DNA of 46,879 nucleotides, taken from positions 1 to 46,879 of the IMG/VR virus record IMGVR_UViG_3300031977_001000; one strand, given 5' to 3'. Of this stretch, positions 4,058 through 43,869 are shown one piece after another. Under the pieces are notes generated by a model, which saw only the letters and a list, made by a program, of their open reading frames with translations, was not told the DNA's origin and made no database searches. Both the position numbers and the translations under genes were made by a program. Source of the stretch: a virus. Position 1 is the stretch's first letter. Every line of letters starts with the position of its first letter.

Positions 4058-4058
4058 A

Positions 4059-4274
4059 TTACTTCCTTTTTTTCAGTTCCAAAAATTTATCAACTGCGTC
4101 GTCGATATTTTTAAATAAGTGATGTTCCCCGTATCGGTCAGACCACACTTGATATTCATTCGATCTTGCCAATCTTGGATAATAATTAGCTAGATTACAC
4201 ACCGTAATATCTTTATAGTCAATGCTGCAACCAGAAAAAATCACAGACATATACTCTTCTCTTGTAGCGTTCAT
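4059..4274 (-). CDS. small protein between split polymerase genes
   Basis: This 71-residue protein is not one I recognise. Its ATG follows the TAA of the polymerase N-terminal half with no gap, and its own stop is one base from the exonuclease start, so it is translated as part of the polymerase operon. The N-terminal half contains two cysteines (C16, C26) and many aromatics; the C-terminus is acidic and then basic (FLELKKRK). The compact mixed composition suits a small folded domain. By position it could bridge the two polymerase pieces or the exonuclease, but that is inference from gene order only. Confidence 0.65.
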   Translation of the reverse strand: MNATREEYMSVIFSGCSIDYKDITVCNLANYYPRLARSNEYQVWSDRYGEHHLFKNIDDAVDKFLELKKRK

Positions 4275-5867
4275 TTAATCCTCACAGATTTCCATAATTT
4301 TACTTAACAAGTCAATTCCAAGAACATCAAACTTGACATGACCCATAGCCTCTAGGTCATTCATTTCAAGCGCGGCAATCATCTTGCCATTCTTGTCTTT
4401 AACCATTGGACAAACTTCTGCGAGAGGATGTTTTGAAATAATCACACCAGCAGCATGTTTGCCTTGGGATTTATTAGTTCCTTCAATTTTAATCGCCTGC
4501 TCAAAATAGTGAGAAAGCGGTCCATCAAGTTTTCCTTCTTCATCATAGTAACACCAACTTTTTAGTGCCTCGGATTCATTTTCTAAAGCCCATCTAATGA
4601 TAGACTTATCGTCCATTAATTCTAGCTGGTCAGAAATCTTAGCTTCGTCTGGAATACTGTCGGTAATAGCGTTCATCTCAGAGAATGATACAGCATCATT
4701 GATTCTCAACACCTCTTTGATGGCGGCTCGCCCCTGTAGTTTTCCAAACGTTACCATCTGAGAGACCTTATCAATTCCATACTTTTCCTTGATGTAATCA
4801 ATCACTTCGTCTCTATGTTCAGCCGGAACGTCCATATCAACGTCAGGCAAAGAAACATGATCCTCGGTGTTTCGTCCCTCATTGTAAAATCTCTCAAACA
4901 GTAAGTCAAATTCAATTGGGTCAACTTCTGTGATTCCAACCAAATAAGATATTAAACAGCCAGCAGCAGAGCCACGACCCGGACCAGCGATCCAGCCACG
5001 ATCTTTAACATGATTGACAATATCTTGGACGATCAAAAAATAACCACTGAGATTGGCCTTAAAGATAACCTCAAGCTCTTTCTTGACTCTCTCTAGATAA
5101 ATATCTCTTTGAACTGGGTCTTTTACTTTTCCGGCTGGCGCTAGCTTAGACTTCCAGCCATGACGACACAACTCTTTTAAATATTCATCATTATCAAAAC
5201 CTTCTGGAACATCAAACTCTGGAAGCATCGGCTTGCCAGTAATTTCATATTCTTCGCAGGCAGCAATAGCATCAAACATTTCCTCGTCGTCGCTCACATC
5301 GCGTGGCTGTTTCAGACAATAGTCTTCACTTGTAAAGAAATGCTTGTTCTCAAAATCTTCACCCTTTTGCAGCTTTGCCGTAACCTTTGGAATGTTTGTT
5401 TTCATGCCAGAACATAGAATGATTCTATGCAAATCTGCCTCGTCTTGAGTGCAATAATACACAGCATCATCTACATAATTGTAATGAAAGTAGTTCTTGC
5501 CCCACATCTTCTTGTAAGCTGCGTTATCTTCTGATGTGATGAAGAGAATATTTCCATTTTCGGCTATTCTTTTAAGGGTGTCAATGTTTTGTTCTTCAGA
5601 CGAGTAGTTGATTAGGTCAAGCCACCCATCTTTATTTTTAGCAATAAGTAAGAACTGCTCAGTATCTAATCCCAAAATGGGCTTTATATCGTTTTTCTTG
5701 CAGGCTTGGTGAAAGTTCACAGCGCCAGAAAGAGTGTTGATATCGGCAAGAACGCACGCCTCATAACCATATGAAGCGCACAGTTTTGCCAGTCTGTCTG
5801 GATTAGAAAAACCTTTAAGAAGACTGAAGTGAGTCTTGCAGTTTATTGGTGTATTCTTGTTTTTCAT
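4275..5867 (-). CDS. dnaE: DNA polymerase III alpha subunit, N-terminal half (split gene)
   Basis: This 530-residue protein contains the N-terminal PHP domain, thumb and palm of DnaE. The palm motifs GPGRGSAAGCLISYLVG (about 296-311) and PDVDMD carry the first two catalytic aspartates (D342, D344); the third is D514 in KFDVLG, only 17 residues before the stop. The protein therefore ends just after the complete catalytic triad, and the fingers are encoded separately at 1828-3369. The PHP domain is degenerate: the expected HxH near residue 12 reads CKTH. ATG 5867 is preferred over a TTG three bases upstream. The gene starts inside the end of the upstream glycosyltransferase gene. The ending is a natural in-frame TAA followed directly by the next ATG, not an obvious frameshift. 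Confidence 0.93.
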   Translation of the reverse strand: MKNKNTPINCKTHFSLLKGFSNPDRLAKLCASYGYEACVLADINTLSGAVNFHQACKKNDIKPILGLDTEQFLLIAKNKDGWLDLINYSSEEQNIDTLKRIAENGNILFITSEDNAAYKKMWGKNYFHYNYVDDAVYYCTQDEADLHRIILCSGMKTNIPKVTAKLQKGEDFENKHFFTSEDYCLKQPRDVSDDEEMFDAIAACEEYEITGKPMLPEFDVPEGFDNDEYLKELCRHGWKSKLAPAGKVKDPVQRDIYLERVKKELEVIFKANLSGYFLIVQDIVNHVKDRGWIAGPGRGSAAGCLISYLVGITEVDPIEFDLLFERFYNEGRNTEDHVSLPDVDMDVPAEHRDEVIDYIKEKYGIDKVSQMVTFGKLQGRAAIKEVLRINDAVSFSEMNAITDSIPDEAKISDQLELMDDKSIIRWALENESEALKSWCYYDEEGKLDGPLSHYFEQAIKIEGTNKSQGKHAAGVIISKHPLAEVCPMVKDKNGKMIAALEMNDLEAMGHVKFDVLGIDLLSKIMEICED

Positions 5868-6696
5868 CAATTATTTTCTTCAAAATTTGCGACAAGTTAT
5901 CGGGTTCCAATATCGTATTATTATAGTCAGACAGGTTCTTCGTTAGCACCGAAATATCACTATTATTTACTAATTTTAGACATTCTTCCAGATGGTTATC
6001 TAGGAACTGCCACTTTGTAAAGAACAACGGGGCGTTTTCGTAATACCAAAACCTTGGAAGCCTTTCAACCATTGGAAAAGCGCCAAGTTTAATAGCTTCA
6101 AAGAATCTAAAAGACTCATCACTAAAAGCTCCAGTTGGACACAGGCAGATTTTAGAATTATTCAATAGCTCAACATATTCTTGATGATCTAATCCTGTTC
6201 CAAAAGCAGAAGTATATTTTACATAATGCTTGTATTTATCTCCTGTTTTCTCTATCATGTCATCTAGGCATTTCTGAAATTTATCTCTCGTGCCATATTG
6301 CGAGATTTGACCAACAAAACAGAAGTCATATTCTCTTTCGTCTATAGGTTTAATCTCTTCTATCTTTTGTTCAATATTATTAATAAAAGTTCCCACGGGA
6401 AGCGGAAAGAATTTATGATTTACAACAGGATATCCCCAGTTATCTAACATGGAGTAGTTGTGAAAAATCAAAAACACGCTTTCTTCATCCACGTATCTTG
6501 GATACTGATGCGTTTCATTAGATAGCGAGAACAAGATATGCTTCTTGCCGTCTTTTGGAAATGTATAATCTTGAAGATCATATTTAACCACAACGCGAAA
6601 GCTGTCATCAAGTAGTTTAGCAAGACTTTCGGCAGTGTCAAGTAGAATCTTGTTACCTAAGTCAAAATCTTTTTTTATATCAATTAATTGTGCCAT
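5815..6696 (-). CDS. exostosin-like glycosyltransferase
   Basis: This 293-residue protein shows the C-terminal pattern of exostosin/GT47-like and related glycosyltransferases: NSKICLCPTG followed by SFRFFEAIKLGAFPMV, where the conserved glutamate sits in a loop that contacts the sugar-nucleotide. The N-terminal half is a less conserved Rossmann-like region with FCFVGQ. No signal peptide or membrane segment is visible, so it probably acts in the host cytoplasm. It is wedged between a PD-(D/E)XK nuclease and the polymerase, overlapping the polymerase N-half by 53 bases, so it is expressed with replication genes despite its glycan role. It could modify phage DNA bases or virion glycans; neither is shown by the sequence. 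Confidence 0.7.
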   Translation of the reverse strand: MAQLIDIKKDFDLGNKILLDTAESLAKLLDDSFRVVVKYDLQDYTFPKDGKKHILFSLSNETHQYPRYVDEESVFLIFHNYSMLDNWGYPVVNHKFFPLPVGTFINNIEQKIEEIKPIDEREYDFCFVGQISQYGTRDKFQKCLDDMIEKTGDKYKHYVKYTSAFGTGLDHQEYVELLNNSKICLCPTGAFSDESFRFFEAIKLGAFPMVERLPRFWYYENAPLFFTKWQFLDNHLEECLKLVNNSDISVLTKNLSDYNNTILEPDNLSQILKKIIDEKQEYTNKLQDSLQSS

Positions 6697-18767: not shown

Positions 18768-21623
18768 CTATACTCTTAAAAGTCCAAATATAACATTGTC
18801 GCCATACTCATGTGCGCCAATATCCCAAATACTATTTTCTGTATCTCTGTCTTTGCCGTTGATGTCGTACTGAACACCATCGGGCGTTGTTCCTAAGTCT
18901 ACGCCAGCGTCAATGGCGGCGGATTTGAATATGAGGTGTAAGTCTTCGCTACCGCTCAGTGTGGACACGAATTGTCTTGAGACTGGTTGATTTGTTTTTG
19001 AATTAGTTCCGATAGCAGTTCCGTCAGAGGATATATTGCTGGCATTGTTAGCAGATGACAAGTAATCTCCGCTAAATAAGCCGTATGTTGGATGAGGATT
19101 ATCTGATGTTGCTAAAATGTTTTTAATATTCACAGTTCCAATGCCAATATATGTCACTCGGTAAGCAACAGGTAAGTGAATAGTATTATTGTATTGATTA
19201 GCGTTATTATTTCCAAAGTTCACATTAGTTAAAAATCCGCCACTACTTCCGTAAGCTATGTTGTTATATGATTGTAAATATGCGTTAACCTGATCTCCCG
19301 GACCTCTAGTTATGCAATTTCTTAGTGCTGAGTTTAAAGTGTTGTCATAAAATGCAATCAAAAATGTTCTACTAAATCCTTGGCCGTCAATGTCTAACCA
19401 TTCTACTATTGTTGGTATTCTTGTTGATGCATCTTTCCCCGCTTCGGCGTAAAAGGCTTTAAATGCATTAAATGTTATCTTAACTCCAGTATCTGCCGTT
19501 CCATCGTGGCGATCTGCTTGAGCGGCTGTTACTGTAACACTGCTCAGTCCGACTACGCCTCCACCTCTGAGAGTTATATGGTCAGTTAGAGCAAAAGTAC
19601 TATCATTATAACATTCACCAACCGCATCGTCCCCACTCGTATACAAACTTGTGTCGTCCAAGTCCGCTTCCCATAACGCAATAGTGCTGTAGTCGCGCGA
19701 TGAAGTGCCGATACTTGCCGTAATATAGACTTGATCTGCGCCAATGTCCCAAGTGGTTCCAGTAAAAGCGTCTCTGTTTGTGCCGTCTATATCTATCGCA
19801 TAATCGCTTCCTAGATCCTGACCAGCGCCCCTAAGAGAGGATGAAGCAAGTAAGTGTAAATCTTCGCTACCGCTCACAACAGAAACAAAATGATCTGAGG
19901 CAGTTATTCCCGTTGTCTGTCCAGAACTATCGCTTGTGGCGTTTGTTGTTGGCGAGATCGTCCACCCTGTGTCTATATCGGCGGTTTGGAAATTAGCCAT
20001 AATATTAGAACGTATATCAACATTACTAGAGAAGTTAATATAATCAATACCAACTCGCGATCTATTGGTTATGCTAGAGCCATAACCTGTGTTATTGTAA
20101 ATATATGCATATCCAGCATAAGACGCTCTTATACAGTAGCCCATAGTAATAAAGAAATTATTATGAACTCTTGTGTCTGTCACATTGGATTGAACATAAA
20201 CACCAAGCGCTGGTGAAACAGAACCACTTTCTAAAGAATGAAATAAGCATCCGTTAACATCACAATTTGTGGCGCCTCTACTGATTCTCAACCAAATGCC
20301 AAACACATCATATCCAGCAAATTGATCAAATTCAAATTCTAAAAATTCTACTCTTACATTTGGATCTTCTATTATTAGACAGTGACTCGCGTAAAGGCTT
20401 GCTGGTGCTGGTACTAACTTTGCGCCAGTTCCAGCCGTTCCGTCGTGTCGCTCAGATTTCGGTACGGTAAGTTTTATTGAAGACAGTGTGACGTTAGTAT
20501 CTATAGTGATTGCAGATGAAAAGGTAAACGATGAATCGTTATACACCTCACCAACCGCATTTGCTCCAGCCCCATAGATAGTCGTATCATCTAAATCCGC
20601 CTCCCACAACGCGATAGTGGAGTAGTCGCGGCTACTTGTTCCGATACTTGCCGTGGAAGCATATTGGTGCGCGCCGATGTCCCAAACGGTGGCGGCGAGG
20701 GCGTTGCGGTCACTGCCATTGATGTCTACGCTGGTTGTGGCGAGGTCTACTCCCGCGCCTACGGCATCCGCCGTAGATAGAAGATGGAGGTCTTCTGATC
20801 CCGCGACCGTGGACACAAATTGGTTGGCGGCTGTTTTGCCCGTTAGAGAACCTGTGCCAGAAGCGGTTGAGTCGGACGATAAGTTGTTACTTTCTGTACC
20901 AGAAATGGTGCCAGTAGCAAAATCGTTTCCACTACAATCTGTAGCAATACAGTTTCTCAAATCGTTGCATGTTACGCTAAAGCACGAACCTGTAGTTCCT
21001 CCCGGCTCAGTAATATCGTGAACGGTGCAGTTATAGATATAGATATTCCCAGTGGCCGTGGTTATACCCGCAGGGTTCCCACCCGAAGCGTGAGTAATAT
21101 CATAAACTATATTATTAGTTACATTATATGTAATGCCAGCAACGGACCCTGTTGCGACCCCCTTCAAGCTTCTGTAGTTCTGAGTGCTGACTGCGGCACC
21201 ATGAACAATACAAGCGTGTAGATTATTAGTCGCGCCAGATCCCGCTGAACCAGTTAGGCTGACCATAGTAATATTAGCATTTGCAGCAGCTGTTTTATCT
21301 ACTTCTATAAAGCTAATAGTTTTATCAACACTTCCACCCGTTCCGATAAATATGATTTGAGTAGACGACACGATTCTAGCACCAGTTCCTTCTGTACCAT
21401 CGTGTTTTTCTCCATTGGCAGCGGTCAATTTTATAGAGTTCAGTCCAACGGTTGAACCGCCATCTATACCAACACTTTCATCAAATGCCGTATCATTATA
21501 GCACTCCCCAACAGCATCATCGCCGCTGGTGTAGATTCCAGTGTTATCAAGATCGGCCTCCCACGCCGTGATTGTAGAATAATCGCGACTGGAAGTACCA
21601 ATAGATTTAGTAATTGTTGCCAT
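18768..21623 (-). CDS. three-module beta-helix fibre/spike-like protein
   Basis: This 951-residue protein is made of three homologous modules of about 310-325 residues starting near residues 7, 326 and 637, each opening with SIGTSSRDYST, a WEADLD segment and GE-x-YND. Each module ends with SEDLHL and a WDIGA motif. Between these lie Asn/Gly/Ser-rich rungs typical of right-handed parallel beta-helices. Such proteins serve as phage fibres or spikes and often bind or cleave polysaccharide. No catalytic residues can be named. The ATG overlaps the TAA of the paralogous upstream gene. The internal repeats imply duplication. Confidence 0.75.
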   Translation of the reverse strand: MATITKSIGTSSRDYSTITAWEADLDNTGIYTSGDDAVGECYNDTAFDESVGIDGGSTVGLNSIKLTAANGEKHDGTEGTGARIVSSTQIIFIGTGGSVDKTISFIEVDKTAAANANITMVSLTGSAGSGATNNLHACIVHGAAVSTQNYRSLKGVATGSVAGITYNVTNNIVYDITHASGGNPAGITTATGNIYIYNCTVHDITEPGGTTGSCFSVTCNDLRNCIATDCSGNDFATGTISGTESNNLSSDSTASGTGSLTGKTAANQFVSTVAGSEDLHLLSTADAVGAGVDLATTSVDINGSDRNALAATVWDIGAHQYASTASIGTSSRDYSTIALWEADLDDTTIYGAGANAVGEVYNDSSFTFSSAITIDTNVTLSSIKLTVPKSERHDGTAGTGAKLVPAPASLYASHCLIIEDPNVRVEFLEFEFDQFAGYDVFGIWLRISRGATNCDVNGCLFHSLESGSVSPALGVYVQSNVTDTRVHNNFFITMGYCIRASYAGYAYIYNNTGYGSSITNRSRVGIDYINFSSNVDIRSNIMANFQTADIDTGWTISPTTNATSDSSGQTTGITASDHFVSVVSGSEDLHLLASSSLRGAGQDLGSDYAIDIDGTNRDAFTGTTWDIGADQVYITASIGTSSRDYSTIALWEADLDDTSLYTSGDDAVGECYNDSTFALTDHITLRGGGVVGLSSVTVTAAQADRHDGTADTGVKITFNAFKAFYAEAGKDASTRIPTIVEWLDIDGQGFSRTFLIAFYDNTLNSALRNCITRGPGDQVNAYLQSYNNIAYGSSGGFLTNVNFGNNNANQYNNTIHLPVAYRVTYIGIGTVNIKNILATSDNPHPTYGLFSGDYLSSANNASNISSDGTAIGTNSKTNQPVSRQFVSTLSGSEDLHLIFKSAAIDAGVDLGTTPDGVQYDINGKDRDTENSIWDIGAHEYGDNVIFGLLRV

Positions 21624-23569
21624 TAACCAATCCCTAGTAGCAGTCTTCTAATGTGTCCGCCTAATAATTCGTCTGCGCCGATGTCCCACAGGCCAGCACG
21701 AAGCTGTCCGTCTATATCATATTCTACACCGTCTACGGTTCCTGTCAAGTCCGCGCCAGCATCTATAGCGTCAGAACTTCCTGATAGATGGAGGTCTTCC
21801 GCGCCCGCGACAATAGAGATGAATTGATCTTCTGTCACAGCTCCTGTCACATGATCTGATCCACCAAACGCTGTTGCCGTTGAGTCGGAAGAAGCATTGT
21901 TGCTGCTAGAACCAACAGTTACAGTAGACGGATAAAAATCCACATTATTACCAATAGATAAATTATTTTTTATTGTGCGTTGATTTTGATCAGCAGAAGC
22001 AGCCTTATATCCATAATTGCAATCATATATGGTATTGTTAAAGGCGCTACATGCCCGATAGCTATCCGCTATTCCGCCTCCATTATTTCCGTTTGCTGTT
22101 CCATAGACAATGTTATTGTGTAAAATATTATTGTTTCCGCCCACAACGGCAAGATAAGGGGTTTGAGCGGGATACACCTTGTTTTCCCCTTTTAAAACAA
22201 GATATCTAGCACTATTATTACTATTATATATATTGAAAGCAATAGCCGGTGTGTGGGCATATGTAGAAGCTCCATTAACCTCACATTCTAGCCATTCTAC
22301 TGTAAGATTGTCTCTAGATATATTTATTAATCGTCCAGCAATAATATAAGCTGGTTTTATTTTTACACCAGTATTTAATGTGCCATCATGCCTTTCGCCT
22401 TCTGCTACAGATAGTGTTACAGAAGATAATCCCACTGTTGTTCCACCGTTAATGTTAGCCCCACCGGTAAACGTGCTATCGTTATAGCATTCTCCAACCA
22501 CGCTATCTCCATTAGCGTATACACCTTGGGTATCTAAGTCTGCTTCCCATAAACCAATCGTACTGTAATCTCTCCCCGCAGAGCCAATAGTCTTAGTAAC
22601 CGTAGCTGGGGTTTGGTCAGCCCCAATGTCCCAAACCGAACCTCTGTATACGCCATCAATATCAGATTGAACAATATCACCGGCGGAACCAAGATTAGCG
22701 CCCGCGCCTCTTGCCTCTGATCCTGTTGCGAGATGCAAGTCTTCCGCGCCCGCAACAACAGAAACAAACTGGACGGATGCCGTTACTTCTGTTAGAGAGT
22801 TTGGGCCGGGAGCAGTATTGTCTGTGGACATATTGTTAGAATTAGTTCCAGCAGCAACATTTCCAAAACAACCAGAATAAACCGCGCTACCTACTTCAGT
22901 AACTATATTATTTCTAACATTATTAGAATATGCAATATGGATACCAAAAGTATATGCGGCATTGGGGTGCGTTGACTGTATATTATGTACAGTATTATTG
23001 TAAGCGTAAGATGGTCTATAGCTATCTACATATATTCCATACGCTCTATACGCGCTGGTATGAGTTAGATTATAAATAATATTATTTGCAACAGTTAGAT
23101 ATCCATATTTACCTTGAATCATTCTTCCCGTAGAAGCAGTCTGCGCATCATGTACCAGCATATTGGCGATTTTTTGCTGATAAGAATTGTTATGGGTATA
23201 TACTATAGAGAACTGATTGCCGCCAGAGCTAGTCCCACCCCAGTCTATTTCTAGCCAGCATACTTCAATATTTTTATCAGAATACATCTGTATTTTGCTA
23301 TCATAAACCATTCTGGCGCCAGTTCCGGCTGTTCCATCGTGCCTGTCTGCCTCAGCAACGGTAAGCTTGATACTATTTAGTCCGGTGATAGAGGTTCCGC
23401 CGCCGTCTATGTTAACCACTTCATTAAAGTCGCTATCATTATAACATTCGCCAACAGCGTCGTCTCCATTGGCGTATACTGTTGAGAAATTATCTAGATC
23501 GGCTTCCCACAGCGTGATAGTAGAATAATCACGGCTTGCGGTTCCGATAGTTTTTGTTACTGTTGCCAT
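21623..23569 (-). CDS. two-module beta-helix fibre/spike-like protein
   Basis: This 648-residue paralogue of the downstream protein has two modules, starting at residue 1 and about 322. The same module signature is present (TIGTASRDYST, TIGSAGRDYST, GECYND, AGAEDLHL, WDIGAD). The C-terminus LGGHIRRLLLGIG is short and non-repeated. Likely a virion adhesin or spike that works together with the downstream protein. Module boundaries in DNA are still recognisable, which points to recent duplication or recombination. Confidence 0.75.
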   Translation of the reverse strand: MATVTKTIGTASRDYSTITLWEADLDNFSTVYANGDDAVGECYNDSDFNEVVNIDGGGTSITGLNSIKLTVAEADRHDGTAGTGARMVYDSKIQMYSDKNIEVCWLEIDWGGTSSGGNQFSIVYTHNNSYQQKIANMLVHDAQTASTGRMIQGKYGYLTVANNIIYNLTHTSAYRAYGIYVDSYRPSYAYNNTVHNIQSTHPNAAYTFGIHIAYSNNVRNNIVTEVGSAVYSGCFGNVAAGTNSNNMSTDNTAPGPNSLTEVTASVQFVSVVAGAEDLHLATGSEARGAGANLGSAGDIVQSDIDGVYRGSVWDIGADQTPATVTKTIGSAGRDYSTIGLWEADLDTQGVYANGDSVVGECYNDSTFTGGANINGGTTVGLSSVTLSVAEGERHDGTLNTGVKIKPAYIIAGRLINISRDNLTVEWLECEVNGASTYAHTPAIAFNIYNSNNSARYLVLKGENKVYPAQTPYLAVVGGNNNILHNNIVYGTANGNNGGGIADSYRACSAFNNTIYDCNYGYKAASADQNQRTIKNNLSIGNNVDFYPSTVTVGSSSNNASSDSTATAFGGSDHVTGAVTEDQFISIVAGAEDLHLSGSSDAIDAGADLTGTVDGVEYDIDGQLRAGLWDIGADELLGGHIRRLLLGIG

Positions 23570-32854: not shown

Positions 32855-33065
32855 CTTGCTTACTTGACTCCATAGCTTTTTCTTTTAGCTTCTGCACAAA
32901 ATTAAACTGATTTAGCAGATTAGAATATTGCTGTATGCTGTCAATTAACTGATCCAAAGACGCAGAATCATTTTTCTCAAGAAGGCTATTTATATCAAGA
33001 GCCTTTCTATCCATTAAAGATTTATAATGAGATTCTAAAGCGCCTATCATAATCATTTTATTCAT
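32844..33065 (-). CDS. small coiled-coil hypothetical protein
   Basis: This 73-residue, helical, probably coiled-coil protein (NSLLEKNDSASLDQLIDSIQ) is not recognised. A GGAGG site lies before ATG 33065 inside the end of the glycosyltransferase gene, and its stop is inside the next gene, so expression is coupled. Confidence 0.55.
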   Translation of the reverse strand: MNKMIMIGALESHYKSLMDRKALDINSLLEKNDSASLDQLIDSIQQYSNLLNQFNFVQKLKEKAMESSKQDED

Positions 33066-34110
33066 TAATAGCCTCCATCATTTTATCTACAGTGTTTTTC
33101 CAGCTAAATTTATTAGCGGTATCAACCCCATTATGGTTAACGCCAAGTTCACCATTTTGTTTTAGCCTGTGTATGTCTCTCATGTATTCTATTATAACGT
33201 CTTTTTGGTCTTGTGCAAGCTCTGCCCACATTCCTTTTTTACCATCAAAAAACACACCATCAAAAGCTGTTTCCATGTTATCAATATTCACAAGCCTAGA
33301 ATTTACAGGAGTGCAAAACTCAGTGTGCGCAGAGTAGTTTGTGGCGATGACATGCTTACCGCAGGCCATCATCTCAAGCAACTCAAGGTTCCAGCCTTCT
33401 GCTCTAGCGGGAAATACCCCACAGTCTACCATATTCATTAGTCGGGCAACATCAGAATGATGCTGCTGTCTTGGGATTAGTCGGATTTTATCACCAAGCC
33501 CCGACTCTTTGTAAAGATTTTGCCAAGTTTTATTATTATCACCAATAAATGGATTAGTACACATCATCCAAAGCTCTACATCGTCAGACGGCAAAAAGGC
33601 GTTATTAAAACATTCTACAATAATATCGTGACCTTTGCGCTTTTCCCATTTGCCGCAATTAAAAAAGATTGTCTTGTTTGAGTTGTTGATTCTCGACGGT
33701 GAAAACGTCTCCGTGTCTACGCCAAGAGGAACAACTGACGATTTAATGCCGGTCTGGTTTTCCATAATCTCTGCCGCCCACTTAGAACAAACCATCATCT
33801 CATCACAATGAGCAAGACTGATTTTCTCCCTTTGATCAAACTGAGTCAACTCAAATATTGGAAACCCGAAATGTTTTCCAGAACCAACTCGCTGAAACAG
33901 GTCGTGCTGGTGCCAGATTTTGACATGCGGCCTGTGCAGTTTTAGATTTGTAATATTGTTCATAGCCCTAACAATAAAATCTTCTTCTGTTTCCGGCTGA
34001 CCAATAGGATAAAGAGCAACAGAATTATCTCTGCTAAAAAGTTCTTTCAAGATATTATAGCCAGCGACACCGTATCCTAAACTATTAATTGGGCTTTGTA
34101 AATTAATCAT
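33058..34110 (-). CDS. GT4-family glycosyltransferase
   Basis: This 350-residue GT-B enzyme has an N-terminal GYGVAGYNILKE start, SSVVPLGVDTETFSP joining the domains, FNCGKWEKRKGHD, and the conserved donor-site glutamates in FPARAEGWNLELLEMMACG. This is a retaining GT4 pattern. Cytoplasmic, no membrane segment. It ends the glycan cassette that includes sulfotransferase and FkbM genes and has AAGGAAT upstream of the ATG. Donor and acceptor are unknown; it likely adds a sugar to a virion protein or to a host-derived glycan. Confidence 0.85.
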   Translation of the reverse strand: MINLQSPINSLGYGVAGYNILKELFSRDNSVALYPIGQPETEEDFIVRAMNNITNLKLHRPHVKIWHQHDLFQRVGSGKHFGFPIFELTQFDQREKISLAHCDEMMVCSKWAAEIMENQTGIKSSVVPLGVDTETFSPSRINNSNKTIFFNCGKWEKRKGHDIIVECFNNAFLPSDDVELWMMCTNPFIGDNNKTWQNLYKESGLGDKIRLIPRQQHHSDVARLMNMVDCGVFPARAEGWNLELLEMMACGKHVIATNYSAHTEFCTPVNSRLVNIDNMETAFDGVFFDGKKGMWAELAQDQKDVIIEYMRDIHRLKQNGELGVNHNGVDTANKFSWKNTVDKMMEAINE

Positions 34111-34111
34111 A

Positions 34112-34783
34112 TTATTCCTTTATCAGGTGTTCAAAGTCTTTATGTATAAAGTAATGCTCCCAAGGCACTTCGCAGTATGGATTTTCTGTCTGTATATATT
34201 TGCTTTTGAATAAAACTTCTGTTAGTTCCGGCGTGGAATATTCTATAGTTATAGCTTTAAATATATATTTATCAAATGGAAATTCTTTTAATATTTCTAA
34301 TTCTGAACCCTCTACATCTAGACATAAACAATCTATAATAGGTGGCGCTTTGCCACGTTTTATTGCCTCGTAAAGAGTAATACATTCAATAGATTGTTTT
34401 TTCATTGACGCGTCACCAACGCTTCTGTTAATTTTTTCCCACCATTTTTTTTCTCCCAATTTGTTAATACTGGGAAAGCCATTATATCCCGCAAATCCAT
34501 CAAACGAAAAATAATCCAATACTTCACAAGAAGAACTTAGTCCTTTGTTTATGCAGAAAGAGTTTGGTCTATTTTTTTGTAGCGCGTTAAAGGCATCGCT
34601 ATGGGGTTCTATTAGTATACCAGTCCATCCAAAATGTTTTTCTAGTACGTAAGTGCAGCTACCATTACATCCTCTTCCAGCACCAGCCTCAATATAAAAA
34701 CCATTTCTAGATTTGTTAAAAACTTTTTCTACAAGCCACTTATCGTTGTAAGTTTTTTCGTTTTTATAATTTATATTAATCAT
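34112..34783 (-). CDS. FkbM-family methyltransferase
   Basis: This 223-residue SAM-dependent methyltransferase has motif I YIEAGAGRGCNGSCTYVLE, then GILIEPHS and CLCLDVEGSELEILKEF, the FkbM hallmark. The FkbM family typically methylates sugar hydroxyls. It lies between sulfotransferase and glycosyltransferase genes, pointing to methylation of the same glycan. It is related in family to the gene at 15495-16118. Confidence 0.8.
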   Translation of the reverse strand: MININYKNEKTYNDKWLVEKVFNKSRNGFYIEAGAGRGCNGSCTYVLEKHFGWTGILIEPHSDAFNALQKNRPNSFCINKGLSSSCEVLDYFSFDGFAGYNGFPSINKLGEKKWWEKINRSVGDASMKKQSIECITLYEAIKRGKAPPIIDCLCLDVEGSELEILKEFPFDKYIFKAITIEYSTPELTEVLFKSKYIQTENPYCEVPWEHYFIHKDFEHLIKE

Positions 34784-35519
34784 TATTTTCCATCCCTAAA
34801 AACCAATCTGGAAAATCATATTTAAATATTTTTTCAATATCTGATAGGTTTGGTATAAGTCTATATTTTTGCTCAAGGTTGGTTAGCTTCTGGTCTTTAG
34901 AAAAAAAACAATCATGACTATCTTGCTGTAGTTCTATACTCATAAAGTCGCAGATTTGTTTTATTTTTTCAGGATTGTTATAAAGACTTTCGTAACTAAC
35001 TGTCATGCTTGGAGTTTTATTTTTTTTTATTGGCTCTAAAAAATTATCGAAATCTAAAAAGCATTTTTTGATAAAACTATTCGTGATCGGGGGTCTGTTT
35101 TCGTTAATAAAGTTTTCACTATATTGTGGGGAATATTTCCCCCACACGTCCAAGCCGTTTGTTTTTTTATATGAAGAAGAGAGCCACAAAGACGCAATTC
35201 TTTCTAGCTGATTTTTTCGATATAAGAAAATCGTCTTAGACGAACCTTCTAAGATTTTAGAATTTTGTTTAAATGTACAAACATCTGGTATGTGTTTTAT
35301 TAAATCCATATCTTTAGTCTTGTTAAATATATGGTTAAATTCATCGTCCCGCCATTTCCAAGCCTCTTTGTTAAATCCTTTTTTTATTTCTTCTGGATGC
35401 TGCTTCCATTCGTCTGGATTAAATGGCTCTCCTTCTGTTTTTTGTGTTTTAAAAGAAGGCGCTAGACACCTATACAGATTGGAAGACCCAGAGCGTGCTT
35501 GAGCGTAAATTGTTATCAT
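34776..35519 (-). CDS. sulfotransferase
   Basis: This 247-residue protein has the PAPS 5'-phosphosulfate loop near the N-terminus (YAQARSGSSNLYR, residues about 5-17) and a 3'-phosphate motif (FLYRKNQLERIASLWLSS) with the conserved Arg and Ser. It would transfer sulfate from PAPS to a hydroxyl, likely on the glycan built by the neighbours. Sulfation is uncommon in phage glycan cassettes. PAPS must come from the host. It overlaps the FkbM gene downstream by 8 bases and the glycosyltransferase upstream by 4. Confidence 0.8.
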   Translation of the reverse strand: MITIYAQARSGSSNLYRCLAPSFKTQKTEGEPFNPDEWKQHPEEIKKGFNKEAWKWRDDEFNHIFNKTKDMDLIKHIPDVCTFKQNSKILEGSSKTIFLYRKNQLERIASLWLSSSYKKTNGLDVWGKYSPQYSENFINENRPPITNSFIKKCFLDFDNFLEPIKKNKTPSMTVSYESLYNNPEKIKQICDFMSIELQQDSHDCFFSKDQKLTNLEQKYRLIPNLSDIEKIFKYDFPDWFLGMENND

Positions 35520-36484
35520 GCTGCATCCTGTATGACAGAAGATAGTTTAGTTATTAGAGTGTTTGCAAAATAAGTTCCGCTTATCCATCTCTTATCCATG
35601 TTTTTTAAATAAAGATGCGCCTCATATAGCTTATCTATATCATATAGAAGCGATGTGGCGTGGTCAAGATCATTAATATATAAAGGATAATCTTTTCCAA
35701 GATATTCTTCTACTGCTGGCAGCCTATTGACCAACAGGGGAGTGTTTCTTGCCACACACTCAATTACCGCATTGTTTGCCGAGCTGTCGTAAAGATTCAC
35801 CAGTACAACACACTTTGAAAGCAGGCGATCAAATTCTTCGTTAGATATATTTTTAACATCCACCCCAGACCAAGTGTACTTACGTTGTCTAGCATTTCTA
35901 GTTGTTTTTACAAAAAGGTCAAACATTTTAATGGAATAATCTACATTTCCGGGAAGCCATATCTTTTTATAAGTACTATCACACCTTAGATCATGTATTG
36001 ACTCAAGCTTTCTTAACCAATAACCAAGTTGCACAACATATTTATAGCGATCCTCCGTATAGTTTTTAATATTCCATTTTTGTCTTGGTACTTCTGTCGG
36101 ATGCATAACGGTAACAATCGGCACGTCTATCTTATCTCTAAGCCAACTAGATAGATATTCAGAAAGACATACAATAGCTTTGCATGTTTTTAGAGATTCC
36201 TGAAATACATCTCTCTGTAAAACTGCTTGAGGTGAATTAGCAATATCGAACCAGTCTGGTGAAATTGGAGGATTGTGCCATACGCCCACCCAGTTTTTTC
36301 TATATGGCAAAACACATGAGCCATTGTAGTAGTCTTCTATATTCCAGCTAAAGTCTTTTTCTATGAAATCATTAAAGAGAATACCATTCCTAGAATGAAA
36401 ATGACGCAGCTTGGACATGCAGTATTGCCACCCAGAGCGATGCGCCGTAAAGCTTGTTGTGTTAGATAGGTCTAATCTTATCAT
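35516..36484 (-). CDS. GT4-like glycosyltransferase
   Basis: This 322-residue protein has a GT-B-like pattern: AIVCLSEYLSSWL in the acceptor half and LVNLYDSSANNAVIECVARNT in the donor half, where the conserved ExxE-type pair is replaced by a single clear glutamate (VIECVA). VWHNPP near the N-terminus matches other phage-encoded members. Less canonical than the gene at 33058. It overlaps the sulfotransferase by four bases. The role is a glycan assembly step. Confidence 0.7.
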   Translation of the reverse strand: MIRLDLSNTTSFTAHRSGWQYCMSKLRHFHSRNGILFNDFIEKDFSWNIEDYYNGSCVLPYRKNWVGVWHNPPISPDWFDIANSPQAVLQRDVFQESLKTCKAIVCLSEYLSSWLRDKIDVPIVTVMHPTEVPRQKWNIKNYTEDRYKYVVQLGYWLRKLESIHDLRCDSTYKKIWLPGNVDYSIKMFDLFVKTTRNARQRKYTWSGVDVKNISNEEFDRLLSKCVVLVNLYDSSANNAVIECVARNTPLLVNRLPAVEEYLGKDYPLYINDLDHATSLLYDIDKLYEAHLYLKNMDKRWISGTYFANTLITKLSSVIQDAA

Positions 36485-37338
36485 ATTAGTTTTTTCCCAA
36501 GTATACCTTCAAAGTATCCAATTTGGTATTTACATCTCAACATAACCAAAAGCTCTAAGTATTCCGTTGTTTCTTCATCTCTTTCTTGGTCGAACAGCCA
36601 CCGTGGATTATTAGCGTCCACAACCTCTGGTGACTCTACGAACCTCCTCCAAAGCTCTTTCTTCTTGTCCGCGTGAGCTAGATCGGCATTTGAAAGACCG
36701 TCTCTGAAGCCAATATCATAATAATAATCAGATAATACATCAATGGTAAAATCTCTTTCTGATAAAGACTTCAGTCTAGAAAGATTACTGCAATAATAAA
36801 TCTTATAGTTTTTAGCCACGCTCTTAACAAACAGGGGATTATCTAAGATTGATGACCTTGGTGTTTGCAAAGAAGAAAATCCTATTCTGTTGTAGGCTGG
36901 GCCTGAAATAACAGCGCCACGCAGAGTGCCATAATTATGCTCTTCTGATGTTATGTCCGACACCTGAGTACCGCCACCAAAATCTAAACTGTAAGAATGA
37001 TATGAGTTCTTGATATGTCTTATGTATTTATTAGAAGATGTCTTGACCTCTACAGGCCCGAACATGATCCCCATATCTCTAAATAAGTTATTTATAGTGA
37101 TGGCATTAAATATGAAGTCGTCTTTAATTAAAAAAGAATTATCAATAAAAATAACAACTTTTGAATCTACTTCATTGGGAATGTTGTCTGTGTCGCAGTT
37201 AACAATATTAAATGAAACGCCCATACTGTTTAGTTGGACAGAAAGAGACTTGAGTGGCGCGTCATAGTCGCCGCTTTTTGCGTATACAGTCTCACCGACT
37301 AGCGCATCTTTCAGCGCTATCAAAGTTACGTCCTTCAT
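36481..37338 (-). CDS. putative glycosyltransferase-fold protein of glycan cassette
   Basis: This 285-residue protein is uncertain. VVIFIDNSFLIKDDFIFNAI looks like a GT-A strand with a DxS in place of DxD, followed by GPAYNRIGFSS and NPLFVKSVAKN. It could be a degenerate GT2-type enzyme. It is the first gene of the glycan cassette with AAGGAAA upstream. Function not established. Confidence 0.5.
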   Translation of the reverse strand: MKDVTLIALKDALVGETVYAKSGDYDAPLKSLSVQLNSMGVSFNIVNCDTDNIPNEVDSKVVIFIDNSFLIKDDFIFNAITINNLFRDMGIMFGPVEVKTSSNKYIRHIKNSYHSYSLDFGGGTQVSDITSEEHNYGTLRGAVISGPAYNRIGFSSLQTPRSSILDNPLFVKSVAKNYKIYYCSNLSRLKSLSERDFTIDVLSDYYYDIGFRDGLSNADLAHADKKKELWRRFVESPEVVDANNPRWLFDQERDEETTEYLELLVMLRCKYQIGYFEGILGKKLI

Positions 37339-37647: not shown

Positions 37648-38727
37648 CTACCACTTTTTACAAGACCAATATCTCGCTTTCCATTTCGGGCCGGGCGCAG
37701 TGTCGCACTTATGGCGCGCCCTAAAACTCTTTCTTCGTGCTGGATCGTCTTTCTTGATTTCCATGTTTGGATCACCAAACCTAACGATCACAACATTACC
37801 ACTACCATTTTTTGTATAGACGGCAAACTTCTTTGGCCCATCTGGAGTTCTGAAAGGTTTGTTAAGAGTGACCTTTCGCCCCTGATATTCTGCTGCTTTA
37901 GATTTTTTAGGATGTCCTTTCGGTAGTAAATCATTGTCTTGAGTATATGCAGAGTTAGAAGGCTTGCCAGTTCTCAGCAGGGTCAAGAAAGCATTTACTC
38001 TAGCGATTGCCCATCCATGACGACTCATCTTCGGTGCATGACTTGTCGAGAAAGCACCAGCACCCCTGCGATAAACAGCCTTTAACATTCCGATGGTCGC
38101 TTTAGAGCCTTTACCTTTAGCGTTATGCTCTGAAACTTTTTTGGAAAGTTGGGCAATCACTTCTTTGCTAAAAGTAATCTTGCCACTGGGATTTTTTGCG
38201 CTGTCTGGCTTGTTTTTGTCAGAGCCTTTCTTCTGATCTTTCTTTGGCGCTGGAGTTCTTCGTGGGTCATCTTTACCCGGCTTATCTGCCTCTGCGTGAT
38301 CTGCATATGCTTCATGCTCAGACTGCGCTCGCTTTAGCTGCTCTTGGGTTGGTCTACCCTCTTTAACGGTTTTAGCTGGCTTATAATTCTTACCTTCGCG
38401 CTCTTTCTTTCTGCGAATGTTCTCCCACAATCCTGGTCGTTCAGCAGCGACATCCCACTCTACTGTTTCTTCTTCAAAGTCTTCGTAATCTTCTTCATTT
38501 GGCACAAAGAAATTATCTTCATTGAGTTCTTCAGTATATCCAAAAGTTTCAAAGCTGTAAGCGAAGTCAGCGGCGGCCATTTCGCCCATGTCTTCGCAGG
38601 CTTTAGTCAAACAAACAGCAACACGCTGACCGTTCTTTGGATATTCCTCTTTCATTTTTGGATCAGACATACAGCGAGAAACAAATTGTTGTCTATCTTC
38701 TCCGTCTTTTTTGCTTGGTAGGGGCAT
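37648..38727 (-). CDS. multi-domain virion-type protein (DUF5824-like)
   Basis: This 359-residue protein joins three segments seen in phage genomes: an N-terminal SRCMSDPKMKEEYP motif (often at the front of phage head-region proteins), a long acidic/basic linker, a RGAGAFSTSHAPKMSR segment with a HGWAIARVNAFL helix that I associate with DUF5824, and a C-terminal RFGDPNMEIKKDDPARRK motif followed by RARHKCD and YWSCKKW. These elements occur in head-maturation or portal-adjacent proteins, but the precise role is unknown. GAAAGGAG is before the ATG. Confidence 0.6.
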   Translation of the reverse strand: MPLPSKKDGEDRQQFVSRCMSDPKMKEEYPKNGQRVAVCLTKACEDMGEMAAADFAYSFETFGYTEELNEDNFFVPNEEDYEDFEEETVEWDVAAERPGLWENIRRKKEREGKNYKPAKTVKEGRPTQEQLKRAQSEHEAYADHAEADKPGKDDPRRTPAPKKDQKKGSDKNKPDSAKNPSGKITFSKEVIAQLSKKVSEHNAKGKGSKATIGMLKAVYRRGAGAFSTSHAPKMSRHGWAIARVNAFLTLLRTGKPSNSAYTQDNDLLPKGHPKKSKAAEYQGRKVTLNKPFRTPDGPKKFAVYTKNGSGNVVIVRFGDPNMEIKKDDPARRKSFRARHKCDTAPGPKWKARYWSCKKW

Positions 38728-39963: not shown

Positions 39964-40635
39964 TTAAATTTTATATGGCTTCAATTCTGGAAACATTTTA
40001 TATCTAATATCTTGCCAGATAGCGCCAGTGATTACCATTGACGCTTCGTTATCTGACGGATAGTGAACGCCCTGTAGGCAGCGAGCATAACCAGCATCGC
40101 CAACCTTGGAGAAAAACTCTCCAGAGTGTTCTGGGTACATGTCTGATAAAAGATATGCGCCCATCGCAGTATAAGCCGTATGACCAGACGGATAAGCTGG
40201 AGTTTGATGCGTCTTGGTTTCTAAGACTGCAATCTGCAACCCATAATACTTAGCCAGTTGTTCTGGTCTTGGCCTATTAAACTTATGTTTGAGATTCATT
40301 ATAATTGGATATGATAACTTCCACACCCTTTTAAATTCCTCTCTCGGCATCTTTAAGTTGTGCCGCCTGAGTATATCATTATATAGGTCAAGCGGCTCAT
40401 TGTCAACAAGATAAACCAAATTTTTCTGGCTTACAGATAGATTTTCGGTAAGATCGGCCAGATACTTTAGTTCTTTCTTTGTTTCTTCAGAACTATTTTT
40501 GGGAGGCTCTGGTAAGATACTCGCCCAGTCAATAGTTATTTGCTTAGAAACATTCCAAGATTTAGTATCGTCAGTATAAGTTACCGAGTCTATTCTTTCT
40601 GCCAGTGATTTGTTTATCTTTGATATAAAACTCAT
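39964..40635 (-). CDS. PAP2-superfamily phosphatase-like protein
   Basis: This 223-residue protein retains all three PAP2/vanadium-haloperoxidase motifs: KX6RP at K116-P124 (KHKFNRPRP), PSGH at 149-152, and RX5HX3D with R185, H191 and D195 (RCLQGVHYPSD). It is probably a soluble acid-phosphatase-like enzyme; there is no membrane segment or clear signal peptide. It follows the secreted His-rich protein and two DUF1501 genes, and could act on a phosphomonoester such as a lipid, nucleotide or sugar phosphate, or protect against host response. The substrate is unknown. Confidence 0.85.
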   Translation of the reverse strand: MSFISKINKSLAERIDSVTYTDDTKSWNVSKQITIDWASILPEPPKNSSEETKKELKYLADLTENLSVSQKNLVYLVDNEPLDLYNDILRRHNLKMPREEFKRVWKLSYPIIMNLKHKFNRPRPEQLAKYYGLQIAVLETKTHQTPAYPSGHTAYTAMGAYLLSDMYPEHSGEFFSKVGDAGYARCLQGVHYPSDNEASMVITGAIWQDIRYKMFPELKPYKI

Positions 40636-41027
40636 CTATGTCTACCATAATAATTAAATGTGTGAACTCTTGGCGCACCATAAAATCCAGCACTAATGCC
40701 AAATCTTACATGGCGACGATCCGGCCCTACGGAAATCGGCCCGACACCAAGATGGAAACCTTGCGGAAACCAACCTATAGTTGGCCTAAATCCTACCGGC
40801 GGACGATGATGACCATGATGACCATGCTGCCAGTGAGGTTGTGAACCACGATGGGGCGAATTGTATCGCTGTGGTCCATGATCTCTTTCTTTATGCTCTA
40901 CCTGCGGTCTACCACGATGTTCGCGTTCTTTGTGCTGAATCTCAGGTTTTCCGCGACCTCTTGCTTCGTCAGCAAAACAAGCAGTAGAAGAAAACAACAA
41001 AGCAAATGCGAGAACTAAATTTTTCAT
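40632..41027 (-). CDS. secreted histidine-rich protein
   Basis: This 131-residue protein has a Sec signal peptide (MKNLVLAFALLFSSTACFADE, cleaved after ACFA or TAC). The mature protein is very rich in His, Arg and Gly (QHGHHGHHRPP) with a C-terminal beta segment (FGISAGFYGAPRVHTF). It would bind divalent metals in the periplasm or outside the cell. AAGGAGAT is before the ATG. The cysteine at 17 might also make it a lipoprotein. A metal-chelating role in support of the neighbouring phosphatase-superfamily enzymes is inference. Confidence 0.75.
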   Translation of the reverse strand: MKNLVLAFALLFSSTACFADEARGRGKPEIQHKEREHRGRPQVEHKERDHGPQRYNSPHRGSQPHWQHGHHGHHRPPVGFRPTIGWFPQGFHLGVGPISVGPDRRHVRFGISAGFYGAPRVHTFNYYGRHR

Positions 41028-41037
41028 AACAATCTCC

Positions 41038-42270
41038 TTAAATTAAATCTGTGATAATCTTGCCACCATTAGCAATTTTCATGGGACGACCATTCTTTGC
41101 AGTATAACTCTTGTTTATATCTATGTCAAGAGCATGACAAATAGTGGTCATCAAATCTTCTGATGAATAGATTAACCCGTCCTTCACTTCTGTTCCGTCT
41201 GAATTTGTAGAGCCAATGGCGCGTCCACCCTGAATCAAGCCACCAGAGACAAACGCAGACCAGACTTTCGCCCAATGGTCGCGTCCAGCATTTTGGTTGA
41301 TTCTTGGAGTCCTACCAAATTCTCCCATCATTACTATAGCAACATTATCCCACATGTCAAGACGTTTTAAATCTAACATCAATGTAGATATAACACTGTC
41401 TAGTTCTGGAAGTTTCGTAGATAATGTCTCATGTGTATTTTGATGTAAGTCCCAGCCACCAAAACCAATCTCAACAAATGGAACACCGGTCTGGACGAGC
41501 CGCCTCGCCATCAAAGCACTTCGCCCCAGTCCAGTATCGCCATAAGCATCAATAACCTCTTGCGGCTCATCTGTGGGCTTTAGAGCTTTCATTTGTGGGC
41601 TTGTATTGAGCTTAAATGTTTGCTGTAACATTTCCATGTGGCTCTTAGCCATGTCGCTATTTGTGGATTTAACAAAACCACTTTCAATAGCAGCAAGAGC
41701 CTGCATCCTCTCAAGGTCTACATTGTCGCCAAGGTTTCTGACCTGACCGTTAGAACTAACAATAAAAGGATTCCAAGCAGACCCCAAGAATCCGCCCCCA
41801 ACACTTCCTGTGCTAATAGCAAAGAATGGAGGAATTTCTAAATAATCTCTGTCTTGTGATAATTCATAGGAAATAACAGACCCCATTGATGGATGTGCCA
41901 TATTGGGATTTGGTTTAAATCCTGTGTGCATATAATATGTGCCGCGCATGTGGTCTGCCTCTCTTGTCGCCATAGTTCTGACAATAGAGAAGTCGTTGCC
42001 CTGCTTGGCGAGTTCTGGCATTAGTTCGTTGATTTGGAAATCGCCAGCGGTAGATAAAGCCCTTGAAGGACCGCCAGTGGCAGAACCCTGCTTTATGTCC
42101 CACATATCAATAGTTGGTGGTCCGCCACCAAGCCACACAAGTATTGCGGCTTTTTCATTCTTACGCAACTCCGAAGAATTGTTAATAATGTTTTGACCAA
42201 ATGATAAAGAGGTTGCTGACAGTGATGCCAGACCGCCAACATGTTCTAAGAAATGCCTTCTGTTAATCAT
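41038..42270 (-). CDS. DUF1501 protein with Tat signal
   Basis: This 410-residue alkaline-phosphatase-superfamily protein of the DUF1501 family has an N-terminal twin-arginine signal (NRRHFLEHVGGLASLSA), then LVWLGGGPPTIDMWD, the family's opening motif, GGWDLHQNT, MMGEFGRTPRINQNAGRDHW, all expected metal/phosphate-site motifs. It is exported folded by the host Tat system. DUF1501 proteins are sulfatase- or phosphatase-like and abundant in Planctomycetes. Two copies in tandem in a phage is unusual. Its actual substrate is unknown. Confidence 0.9.
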   Translation of the reverse strand: MINRRHFLEHVGGLASLSATSLSFGQNIINNSSELRKNEKAAILVWLGGGPPTIDMWDIKQGSATGGPSRALSTAGDFQINELMPELAKQGNDFSIVRTMATREADHMRGTYYMHTGFKPNPNMAHPSMGSVISYELSQDRDYLEIPPFFAISTGSVGGGFLGSAWNPFIVSSNGQVRNLGDNVDLERMQALAAIESGFVKSTNSDMAKSHMEMLQQTFKLNTSPQMKALKPTDEPQEVIDAYGDTGLGRSALMARRLVQTGVPFVEIGFGGWDLHQNTHETLSTKLPELDSVISTLMLDLKRLDMWDNVAIVMMGEFGRTPRINQNAGRDHWAKVWSAFVSGGLIQGGRAIGSTNSDGTEVKDGLIYSSEDLMTTICHALDIDINKSYTAKNGRPMKIANGGKIITDLI

Positions 42271-43541
42271 GCAATAATGTCCTGAATTACTTCACCAAAA
42301 TCTACAATTTCAATAGGTCTATCGCCCGGAGCCATAAGTTCTTTATCGGCATTGATTCCCATTTGGTGATAAATCGTAGTTGCCCAGTGTGGGATTGTCA
42401 CTGGATTATCTTCTGGTTCGGTTCCAGTGGCATCGGTAGTACCGTAAGTCATTCCGCCCTTGATTCCGCCACCGGCAAGAATAGAACTGAAAACTTTAGG
42501 CCAATGGTCACGACCAGCATCCTTGTTCACCTTGGGGGTTCTGCCAAACTCAGAAATCACACAAACAAGCGTAGAGTCTAGTAAACCCCGTTCTGTTAAA
42601 TCTTCTATAAGCGCAGCGAACGCTTGGTCAAACGGTGGGACTTGAGAGTTAATGCCATTGAAAATATCTTGGTGCATATCCCAGCCACCATAAGTCATCG
42701 ACACAAACCTAGCGCCCGCTTCAACTAATCTTCTGGACATTAACATTCTTGCGCCAGCAGTATTTCGCCCATATCTATCGCGAACTTCTGGCTTTTCTTT
42801 TTCAATATCAAATGCGTCCTGCGCACTTTGACTGCCAACGAGGTCGTATGCTTTCTCATAAAAAGCATTCATAGCTTTTACAGCATCAGAGTTTACGCGC
42901 TCAGTCATGTTCTTGTTTACAATGTCTAACAGATTTTTTCTTCTTGTAAAGTGATCGTCTGTAATATTAATAGACAAATCTCTAACTTTAAAGTTGTCTG
43001 ACGCTGGATCAGACCCCAAAGAGAATGGAGCGTAAGCATTACTTAGGTATCCAGTTCCGGCAAATTCATTGGGTTTTTCTGGAACGCAGACGTAGGCAGG
43101 AAGATTATTGCGGGAACCAAACTCATGAGAAACAACGCTACCAATAGAAGGATACTGAAGCGCAGGACTCGGTTTATAACCAGTAAACACGCTATTAGTG
43201 CCTCTTTCATGAGCCGCCTCTCCATGTGTCATGCTTCTGATAATCGTTAGTTTATCCGCAACCTTAGCGGTTTTTGGAAATCTCTCGTTGATTTGAATAC
43301 CAGCAACATTTGTATCAATAGCTTTCATAGAGCCACGATATTCTAATGGCGCGACCGTCTTGGGGTCGAATGATTCCTGAGCAGATATACCTCCGGGGAG
43401 GTAGATAAATATCGTACTCTTGGCCTGTCCTTCGATGCTTTCGTAAAACTTTTGTTCGCCCATAGCAAATTGCGTGCCAGCAGCGGCAAAAAGACTTGTC
43501 TGCAAGAAAGCTCTACGGCCAATATGGATATGATTAAACAT
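42267..43541 (-). CDS. DUF1501 protein with Tat signal (paralogue)
   Basis: This 424-residue DUF1501 protein has a Tat signal GRRAFLQTSLFAAAGTQFA, then IYLPGGISAQESFDPKT, GGWDMHQD and ISEFGRTPKVNKDAGRDHW. It resembles the downstream gene along its length but is clearly diverged, so duplication or separate acquisition is old. Both keep the key motifs. The TAA/ATG arrangement (4-base overlap) links the two. It probably acts in the periplasm or envelope on a sulfate or phosphate ester. Confidence 0.9.
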   Translation of the reverse strand: MFNHIHIGRRAFLQTSLFAAAGTQFAMGEQKFYESIEGQAKSTIFIYLPGGISAQESFDPKTVAPLEYRGSMKAIDTNVAGIQINERFPKTAKVADKLTIIRSMTHGEAAHERGTNSVFTGYKPSPALQYPSIGSVVSHEFGSRNNLPAYVCVPEKPNEFAGTGYLSNAYAPFSLGSDPASDNFKVRDLSINITDDHFTRRKNLLDIVNKNMTERVNSDAVKAMNAFYEKAYDLVGSQSAQDAFDIEKEKPEVRDRYGRNTAGARMLMSRRLVEAGARFVSMTYGGWDMHQDIFNGINSQVPPFDQAFAALIEDLTERGLLDSTLVCVISEFGRTPKVNKDAGRDHWPKVFSSILAGGGIKGGMTYGTTDATGTEPEDNPVTIPHWATTIYHQMGINADKELMAPGDRPIEIVDFGEVIQDIIA

Positions 43542-43822
43542 TATAAGCTACCCCAATGTCTCAAAATTGCTAATGAAAGTACGAAAATATAGTCCTCTAC
43601 TTGTGCTGGCGTAAGTTCCATGCCCATTTCCGCTAGTCTGGTGCGCCATTCTAGCATCTGTTTCTTGTCCATCGAGCCAATTCTTTCAAGATAATCTATC
43701 GTATCCTGATCGCCAGTCTTACAAATTTTATAGAATTTCAAATATACATCCCAAGCAGTATCTTCTTCGAGTTCGTTTTTACTGTATGTATAAAATATTC
43801 TGTTAAATTCTTTTTGTTTCAT
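43541..43822 (-). CDS. small hypothetical protein preceding DUF1501 pair
   Basis: This 93-residue helical protein (AWDVYLKFYKICKTG, then DYLERIGSMDKKQML) is not recognised. ATG 43822 has CGGAG upstream and is preferred over an in-frame start at 43858. Its stop overlaps the first DUF1501 start (TAATG), so it is co-translated with the export cluster. In bacteria DUF1501 genes often pair with DUF1549/DUF1553 genes; this is not one of those. Confidence 0.6.
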   Translation of the reverse strand: MKQKEFNRIFYTYSKNELEEDTAWDVYLKFYKICKTGDQDTIDYLERIGSMDKKQMLEWRTRLAEMGMELTPAQVEDYIFVLSLAILRHWGSL

Positions 43823-43869
43823 TTGTATACTCCGTTTTGGACTACAGAATATACACATTTTTTGCTAAA

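Follow-up and report, generated by a model that had tools for sequence, protein, structure and literature searches.

A phage-encoded pair of host-derived DUF1501 proteins, predicted to be Tat-exported, in a lineage pointing to planctomycete hosts

The DUF1501 proteins of planctomycetes, encoded in operons together with PSCyt and PSD1 genes, are the closest described relatives of the phage proteins reported here. The function of PSCyt genes is not known (PMC5615132), and our literature search found no biochemistry for any DUF1501 protein. In Rhodopirellula baltica, heat, cold and salt stress raise the expression of the ECF sigma factor gene RB10049, whose product has been proposed to regulate the PSD1/PSCyt2 protein RB10051 (PMC2754498). 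Among viruses, the best fold match is A0A6J5M742, an annotated DUF1501 protein of an uncultured Caudovirales phage (UniProt/BFVD), with 12% identity over the fold alignment. We found no paper on DUF1501 in phages save PMC5418858, in which a 61-aa ORF gives a weak and unrelated DUF1501 match, and a limited search found no characterised phage of planctomycete hosts.

We analysed a 46,879-nucleotide stretch of viral DNA (IMG/VR record IMGVR_UViG_3300031977_001000), referred to as the window. As originally described, five ORFs occupy positions 39964-43822; all are on the minus strand and are listed here in operon order, followed by one neighbouring gene.

43541..43822, minus strand: small conserved protein; overlaps the alpha start, and its ORF is open from 43858
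42267..43541, minus strand: alpha DUF1501, 424 aa; putative Tat signal IGRRAFLQ; orthologous to a DUF1501 family conserved in Planctomycetia
41038..42270, minus strand: beta DUF1501, 410 aa; putative Tat signal INRRHFLE; orthologous to the planctomycete DUF1501 encoded between PSCyt2/PSD1 and ECF sigma genes
40632..41027, minus strand: small His-rich protein, 131 aa, 11% His, predicted to be Sec-exported; identified from its signal (MKNLVLAFALLFSSTACFA), composition and counterparts
39964..40635, minus strand: soluble PAP2/class A acid phosphatase-like enzyme, 223 aa; Pfam PAP2 6.3e-13, without a signal peptide
37648..38727, minus strand: conserved phage protein, DUF5824-like (phrog_7595), often adjoining the DUF1501 set in relatives

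The five genes are probably co-translated from one operon, because their starts and stops overlap (TAATG, ATGA) or are separated by short, 10-nt gaps. The small gene probably starts at 43822, where the original prediction had placed it, since GGAG lies ahead of this start. Its product is 86-87% identical to counterparts in L005 and L008, with a dN/dS of about 0.05. Neither the small ORF (43541-43858) nor the His-rich gene (40632-41027) has a Pfam or PHROG match, and in related phages the slot of the His-rich protein is filled by varying small secreted proteins.

Both central genes encode full-length members of the family Pfam DUF1501 (PF07394), alpha with an E-value of 3.2e-114 (382.6 bits against a cut-off of 27, model positions 1-390) and beta with 4.3e-88 (296.5 bits against the same cut-off, positions 2-390). 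The motifs GGWDMH/GGWDLH, EFGRTP and GRDHW are intact in the two proteins, as first noted, and residues D288, H290, E331, R334, D345, H346 and H111 are invariant across 65 phage and cellular sequences. AlphaFold2 models (pLDDT 89 for alpha and 84 for beta) were matched by Foldseek with probability 1.00 to sulfatases, LtaS/LtaP and alkaline phosphatase, at modest TM-scores of 0.3-0.46. A sequence search of the PDB gave no significant DUF1501 relative. Profile alignment to sulfatases of Rhodopirellula works for the C-terminal metal half, placing the EFG of DUF1501 on the SDNG metal motif, and is unreliable for the N-terminal half; His111 sits at a helix start in the region of the superfamily nucleophile, within this unreliable part of the alignment.

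On the strength of these models, we class the pair as alkaline-phosphatase-superfamily proteins. They share the superfamily fold with type I sulfatases, LtaS/LtaP and alkaline phosphatases, but differ from type I sulfatases in that a metal-binding Asp is replaced by Glu, the formylglycine motif C-x-[PSA]-[ST]-R (CxPSR) is absent from alpha and beta, and neither matches the Pfam sulfatase model PF00884 at E<=0.1. The sulfatase activity put forward by the original prediction is thus unsupported: we do not call these proteins sulfatases because they lack the formylglycine motif and the profile alignment did not reliably place a nucleophile. They may still have a phosphatase or sulfate-ester activity in the broad sense.

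Both proteins begin with twin arginines (RRAFLQ in alpha, RRHFLE in beta), each ahead of an apolar stretch. Of 141 distinct phage DUF1501 proteins, 138 have the pattern RRx[F/L/M/I]; the three exceptions are ORFs that are truncated or called from a wrong start. In distant phage alphas the signal region has fallen to 37-43% identity, as against 70-76% in the mature part, and the twin arginines persist. We infer from this motif that alpha and beta are exported by the Tat pathway. In one related record (G037; L276:7374-9875) the Tat signal regions of alpha and beta are nearly identical (MKRREFLTSTAG..LGLLQTL), which suggests an exchange of leaders between the two genes. Comparisons between the window and its relatives gave dN/dS values of 0.025-0.04 for alpha and 0.05-0.08 for beta. 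Because these low ratios come with near-saturated synonymous sites, alpha and beta appear to be old phage residents under strong purifying constraint.

Scanning IMG/VR turned up 28 loci with alpha and 24 with beta, from many samples; the beta profile scan yielded 365 DUF1501-encoding stretches, and the best 80 of 365 were retained. Dozens of independent viral contigs of one phage lineage share these genes, with records of up to 162 kb and jumbo relatives of up to 238 kb, and TerL-like matches are present in records G004, G045, G357, G358, G360 and G363. The INPHARED database (50,697 records) contains no match to alpha. As judged by PHROG, the neighbours of the DUF1501 set encode an exonuclease, a split DNA polymerase III alpha, DnaB, UvsX, PhoH, SSB, Hsp20 and dCMP deaminase. 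The site of the set varies among phages (the exonuclease/polymerase interval, ahead of PhoH, or the interval from SSB/PAP2 to a glycosyltransferase). Its membership recurs, with two to five DUF1501 genes standing together per phage: gamma (a third family, added by many phages), alpha, in some cases a fourth DUF1501, and beta. Record G004 (162 kb) has its DUF1501 genes at 114-117 kb within the replication block, distant from very large structural-type genes at 14-86 kb. The set is nonetheless accessory and patchy: 6 of the 34 records that were tested contain it, and nearly all 34 were picked via their polymerase and belong to the polymerase clade.

This distribution bears on the original concern that the block might be host DNA joined to a phage by misassembly. 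The genes are indeed bacterial in origin, as misassembled chromosome fragments would be, but an identical arrangement recurs across many independent contigs and samples, the phage copies have diverged from one another to near-saturation of synonymous sites, and tight overlaps join them to adjoining phage genes. The recurrence refutes this explanation, to which we attach practically no weight.

Other parts of the window have features of their own. Two ORFs at 1828-5870 encode the halves of a split DNA polymerase III alpha (PHROG 405 positions 246-612 and 623-1067), and a conserved ORF at 3362-4057 lies between them, an arrangement that recurs in relatives. Two adjoining large paralogs at 18768-23569 have a repeated start, ATxTKxIGTxSRDYSTIT, and are perhaps structural or fibre-type proteins. 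A cluster of glycosyltransferase and methyltransferase-like genes at 33058-37338 is partly conserved in the lineage.

The ancestry of the pair lies in planctomycetes. Orthologs of alpha were found in 45 of 49 Planctomycetia genomes (54-65% identity) and orthologs of beta in 203 of 298 (up to 56%), the two together spanning 47-65% identity. Most Planctomycetia genomes carry dozens of DUF1501 genes; the orthologs of alpha and beta are mostly one per genome, and their scores are far above those of the other paralogs. The best cellular matches to alpha are planctomycete and verrucomicrobial proteins, at up to 62-65% identity. In phylogenetic trees the phage alphas make up a single group (support 97) nested within those of planctomycetes, and the phage betas branch at three distinct points within the planctomycete betas. 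A larger beta tree needs three changes, at least two of them forced by strongly supported branches, and the beta family was therefore probably captured by phages more than once, at least twice. Because alpha and beta nest in different planctomycete families, the trees mark them as two separately inherited families from which the pair was assembled. A duplication within phages is ruled out by the same groupings, and the description of the two genes as paralogous is not supported in the sense of a duplicated pair; the two proteins are 33% identical to each other.

One Pirellulaceae metagenome-assembled genome (MAG; L052/G021) has an alpha that nests inside the phage alphas (support 100) and a beta (L132) that stands beside one phage beta clade. 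For these reasons its lineage is the best candidate for a host or donor, and gene flow in the reverse direction, from phage to this MAG, is possible. The related phage record G033 encodes, at L283:1829-2908, a member of DUF1559 (E 1e-50), a hallmark family of planctomycetes; this protein has a pilin-like methylation motif. Since DUF1501 ancestry and this DUF1559 gene agree, gene ancestry points to planctomycete hosts for the window phage lineage. The central element of the original prediction, a phage-encoded and Tat-directed DUF1501 pair whose conserved core is intact and which has a planctomycete link, is upheld.

The two host families sit in different operons. In the neighbourhoods that we fetched, alpha is followed by a gene for a PPC-domain protein and then one for a PSCyt2/PSD1 protein; beta follows a PSCyt2/PSD1 gene and is in turn followed, in many genomes, by an ECF sigma gene and a putative anti-sigma gene. 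From gene order, RB10050 of R. baltica, between RB10049 and RB10051, would be the beta ortholog. The phage proteins are full-length orthologs of those in the planctomycete operons, with the same motifs and the same twin-arginine start, but a phage brings together two to five such genes, drawn from different host operons and usually without PSCyt/PSD1, and has them next to replication genes.

An exception is one jumbo-phage group. In records G356 (152 kb; L381:6001-11552) and G366 (L428:9067-17415), beta is followed by a gene for a 624-aa protein, which has no Pfam match, and then by one for a complete, cytochrome-type PSCyt1-PSCyt2-PSD1 protein of 794-795 aa. The latter has CxxCH motifs and matches PSCyt2 (9e-74), PSD1 (2e-70) and PSCyt1 (6e-14). 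Both records contain further DUF1501 genes; G356 has polymerase, PhoH, PAP2 and other genes in common with the window clade, and its beta is flanked by genes that match those in G045, a jumbo record with TerL. PSCyt2 was detected in 3 of the 34 tested records, all from this group, and in none of the window-type phages among them; most phages thus carry DUF1501 alone.

Such solitary copies could act as competitors, with the phage DUF1501 proteins displacing host copies from PSCyt2/PSD1 and so damping or hijacking an envelope system whose operon is stress-linked through its ECF sigma factor. The absence of a partner from most phages fits this reading, as do the ECF sigma gene in the host operon of beta in many genomes and the stress induction and proposed regulatory role of RB10049 in R. 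baltica. However, a pure competitor would not need the putative catalytic residues, which are retained and constrained, and one phage group supplies its own PSCyt; we consider takeover by competition unlikely. A tentative idea, to which we would give somewhat more credence while still doubting it, is that phage DUF1501 and host or, in jumbo phages, phage-encoded PSCyt1/PSCyt2/PSD1 would make up a hybrid extracytoplasmic system, two halves of one periplasmic machine in which the enzyme half would limit infection.

The last gene of the operon appears to belong elsewhere. Its PAP2 motifs, K-x6-RP, PSGH and R-x5-H-x3-D, are intact as predicted and invariant in 13 phage orthologs, and the protein matches acid phosphatase structures 7f18/7f17 (E 4e-12). 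Class A acid phosphatases are normally periplasmic. The phage enzyme has all three catalytic motifs of the class A nonspecific acid phosphatases (PhoN type), but it differs from them in having no signal peptide, and no hydrophobic N-terminus is present in the 13 aligned orthologs. INPHARED holds two distant BcrC-type matches and nothing closer. No PAP2 ortholog was detected in 49 planctomycete genomes at 1e-10. PAP2 adjoins DUF1501 in many relatives, and in the window the genes overlap, as would be expected if all five genes formed a single phosphate- or sulfate-scavenging module. Yet PAP2 occurs without DUF1501, at the equivalent position, in G033, G036, G040 and G041, and DUF1501 without PAP2 in G015, G018, G037 and G045 (some of these records being fragments). 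Together with the missing signal peptide, the lack of a planctomycete ortholog and the absence of a sulfatase motif, this makes a single scavenging module quite improbable, and leaves PAP2 unsupported as an obligate partner of DUF1501. PAP2 is probably a neighbouring cytoplasmic phosphatase with a separate function. The five-gene export system of the original prediction survives in reduced form: the DUF1501 set is a unit, from which PAP2 is separable.

We favour, with a probability of roughly 0.5, the reading that the DUF1501 genes are a host-derived auxiliary set of planctomycete-infecting phages, whose exported enzymes act in the host envelope with host partners. Members of two to five separate DUF1501 families would be made from the replication-phase part of the phage genome; the host Tat system would export them folded; and in the periplasm or envelope they would act as metal-dependent enzymes of the alkaline-phosphatase superfamily, replacing or adding to the host copies. 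Most probably, an extracytoplasmic ester- or polymer-processing activity, served in planctomycetes by DUF1501 with PSCyt2/PSD1, would thereby be kept up or redirected, most phages supplying the DUF1501 part alone and using the host's PSCyt2/PSD1 partner. The partner hypothesis is based on the host operons and on the single jumbo-phage group, and we infer metal catalysis, cooperation with host PSCyt2/PSD1 and a benefit to infection. The repeated capture of the beta family, as read from the trees, is the strongest sign that these proteins matter to infection.

The same proteins could instead serve superinfection exclusion, stripping or altering a receptor ester or polymer so that further phages could no longer enter the infected cell. 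A predicted periplasmic location, an LtaS/sulfatase-like fold, patchy presence and the several DUF1501 families in a phage, which varied substrates would call for, would all suit this role. But the phage copies are orthologs of widespread host proteins with their conserved residues kept, which does not suggest a new activity, and an enzyme already in the cell would bring little gain unless dose or timing matters; we therefore regard exclusion as somewhat unlikely. The auxiliary-set reading agrees with the finding of host-derived genes in bona fide phage genomes, one mark of an auxiliary metabolic gene; another would be a change in host metabolism during infection. The likeness extends to host ancestry, a patchy distribution, conserved residues in the core and purifying selection, and the differences are that the DUF1501 products are predicted Tat-exported envelope proteins and that phages probably took up one host family repeatedly.

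The gene set points a large lineage of uncultured marine phages, jumbo phages included, to planctomycete hosts, and finding a PSCyt-kind c-type cytochrome next to DUF1501 in a phage record is in itself unusual. Each planctomycete genome carries PSCyt, PSD1 and DUF1501 genes by the dozen, none with an assigned function, and the phages' picks give a first handle on them: by choosing the same few members, beta probably twice or more, the phages single out those most worth assaying.
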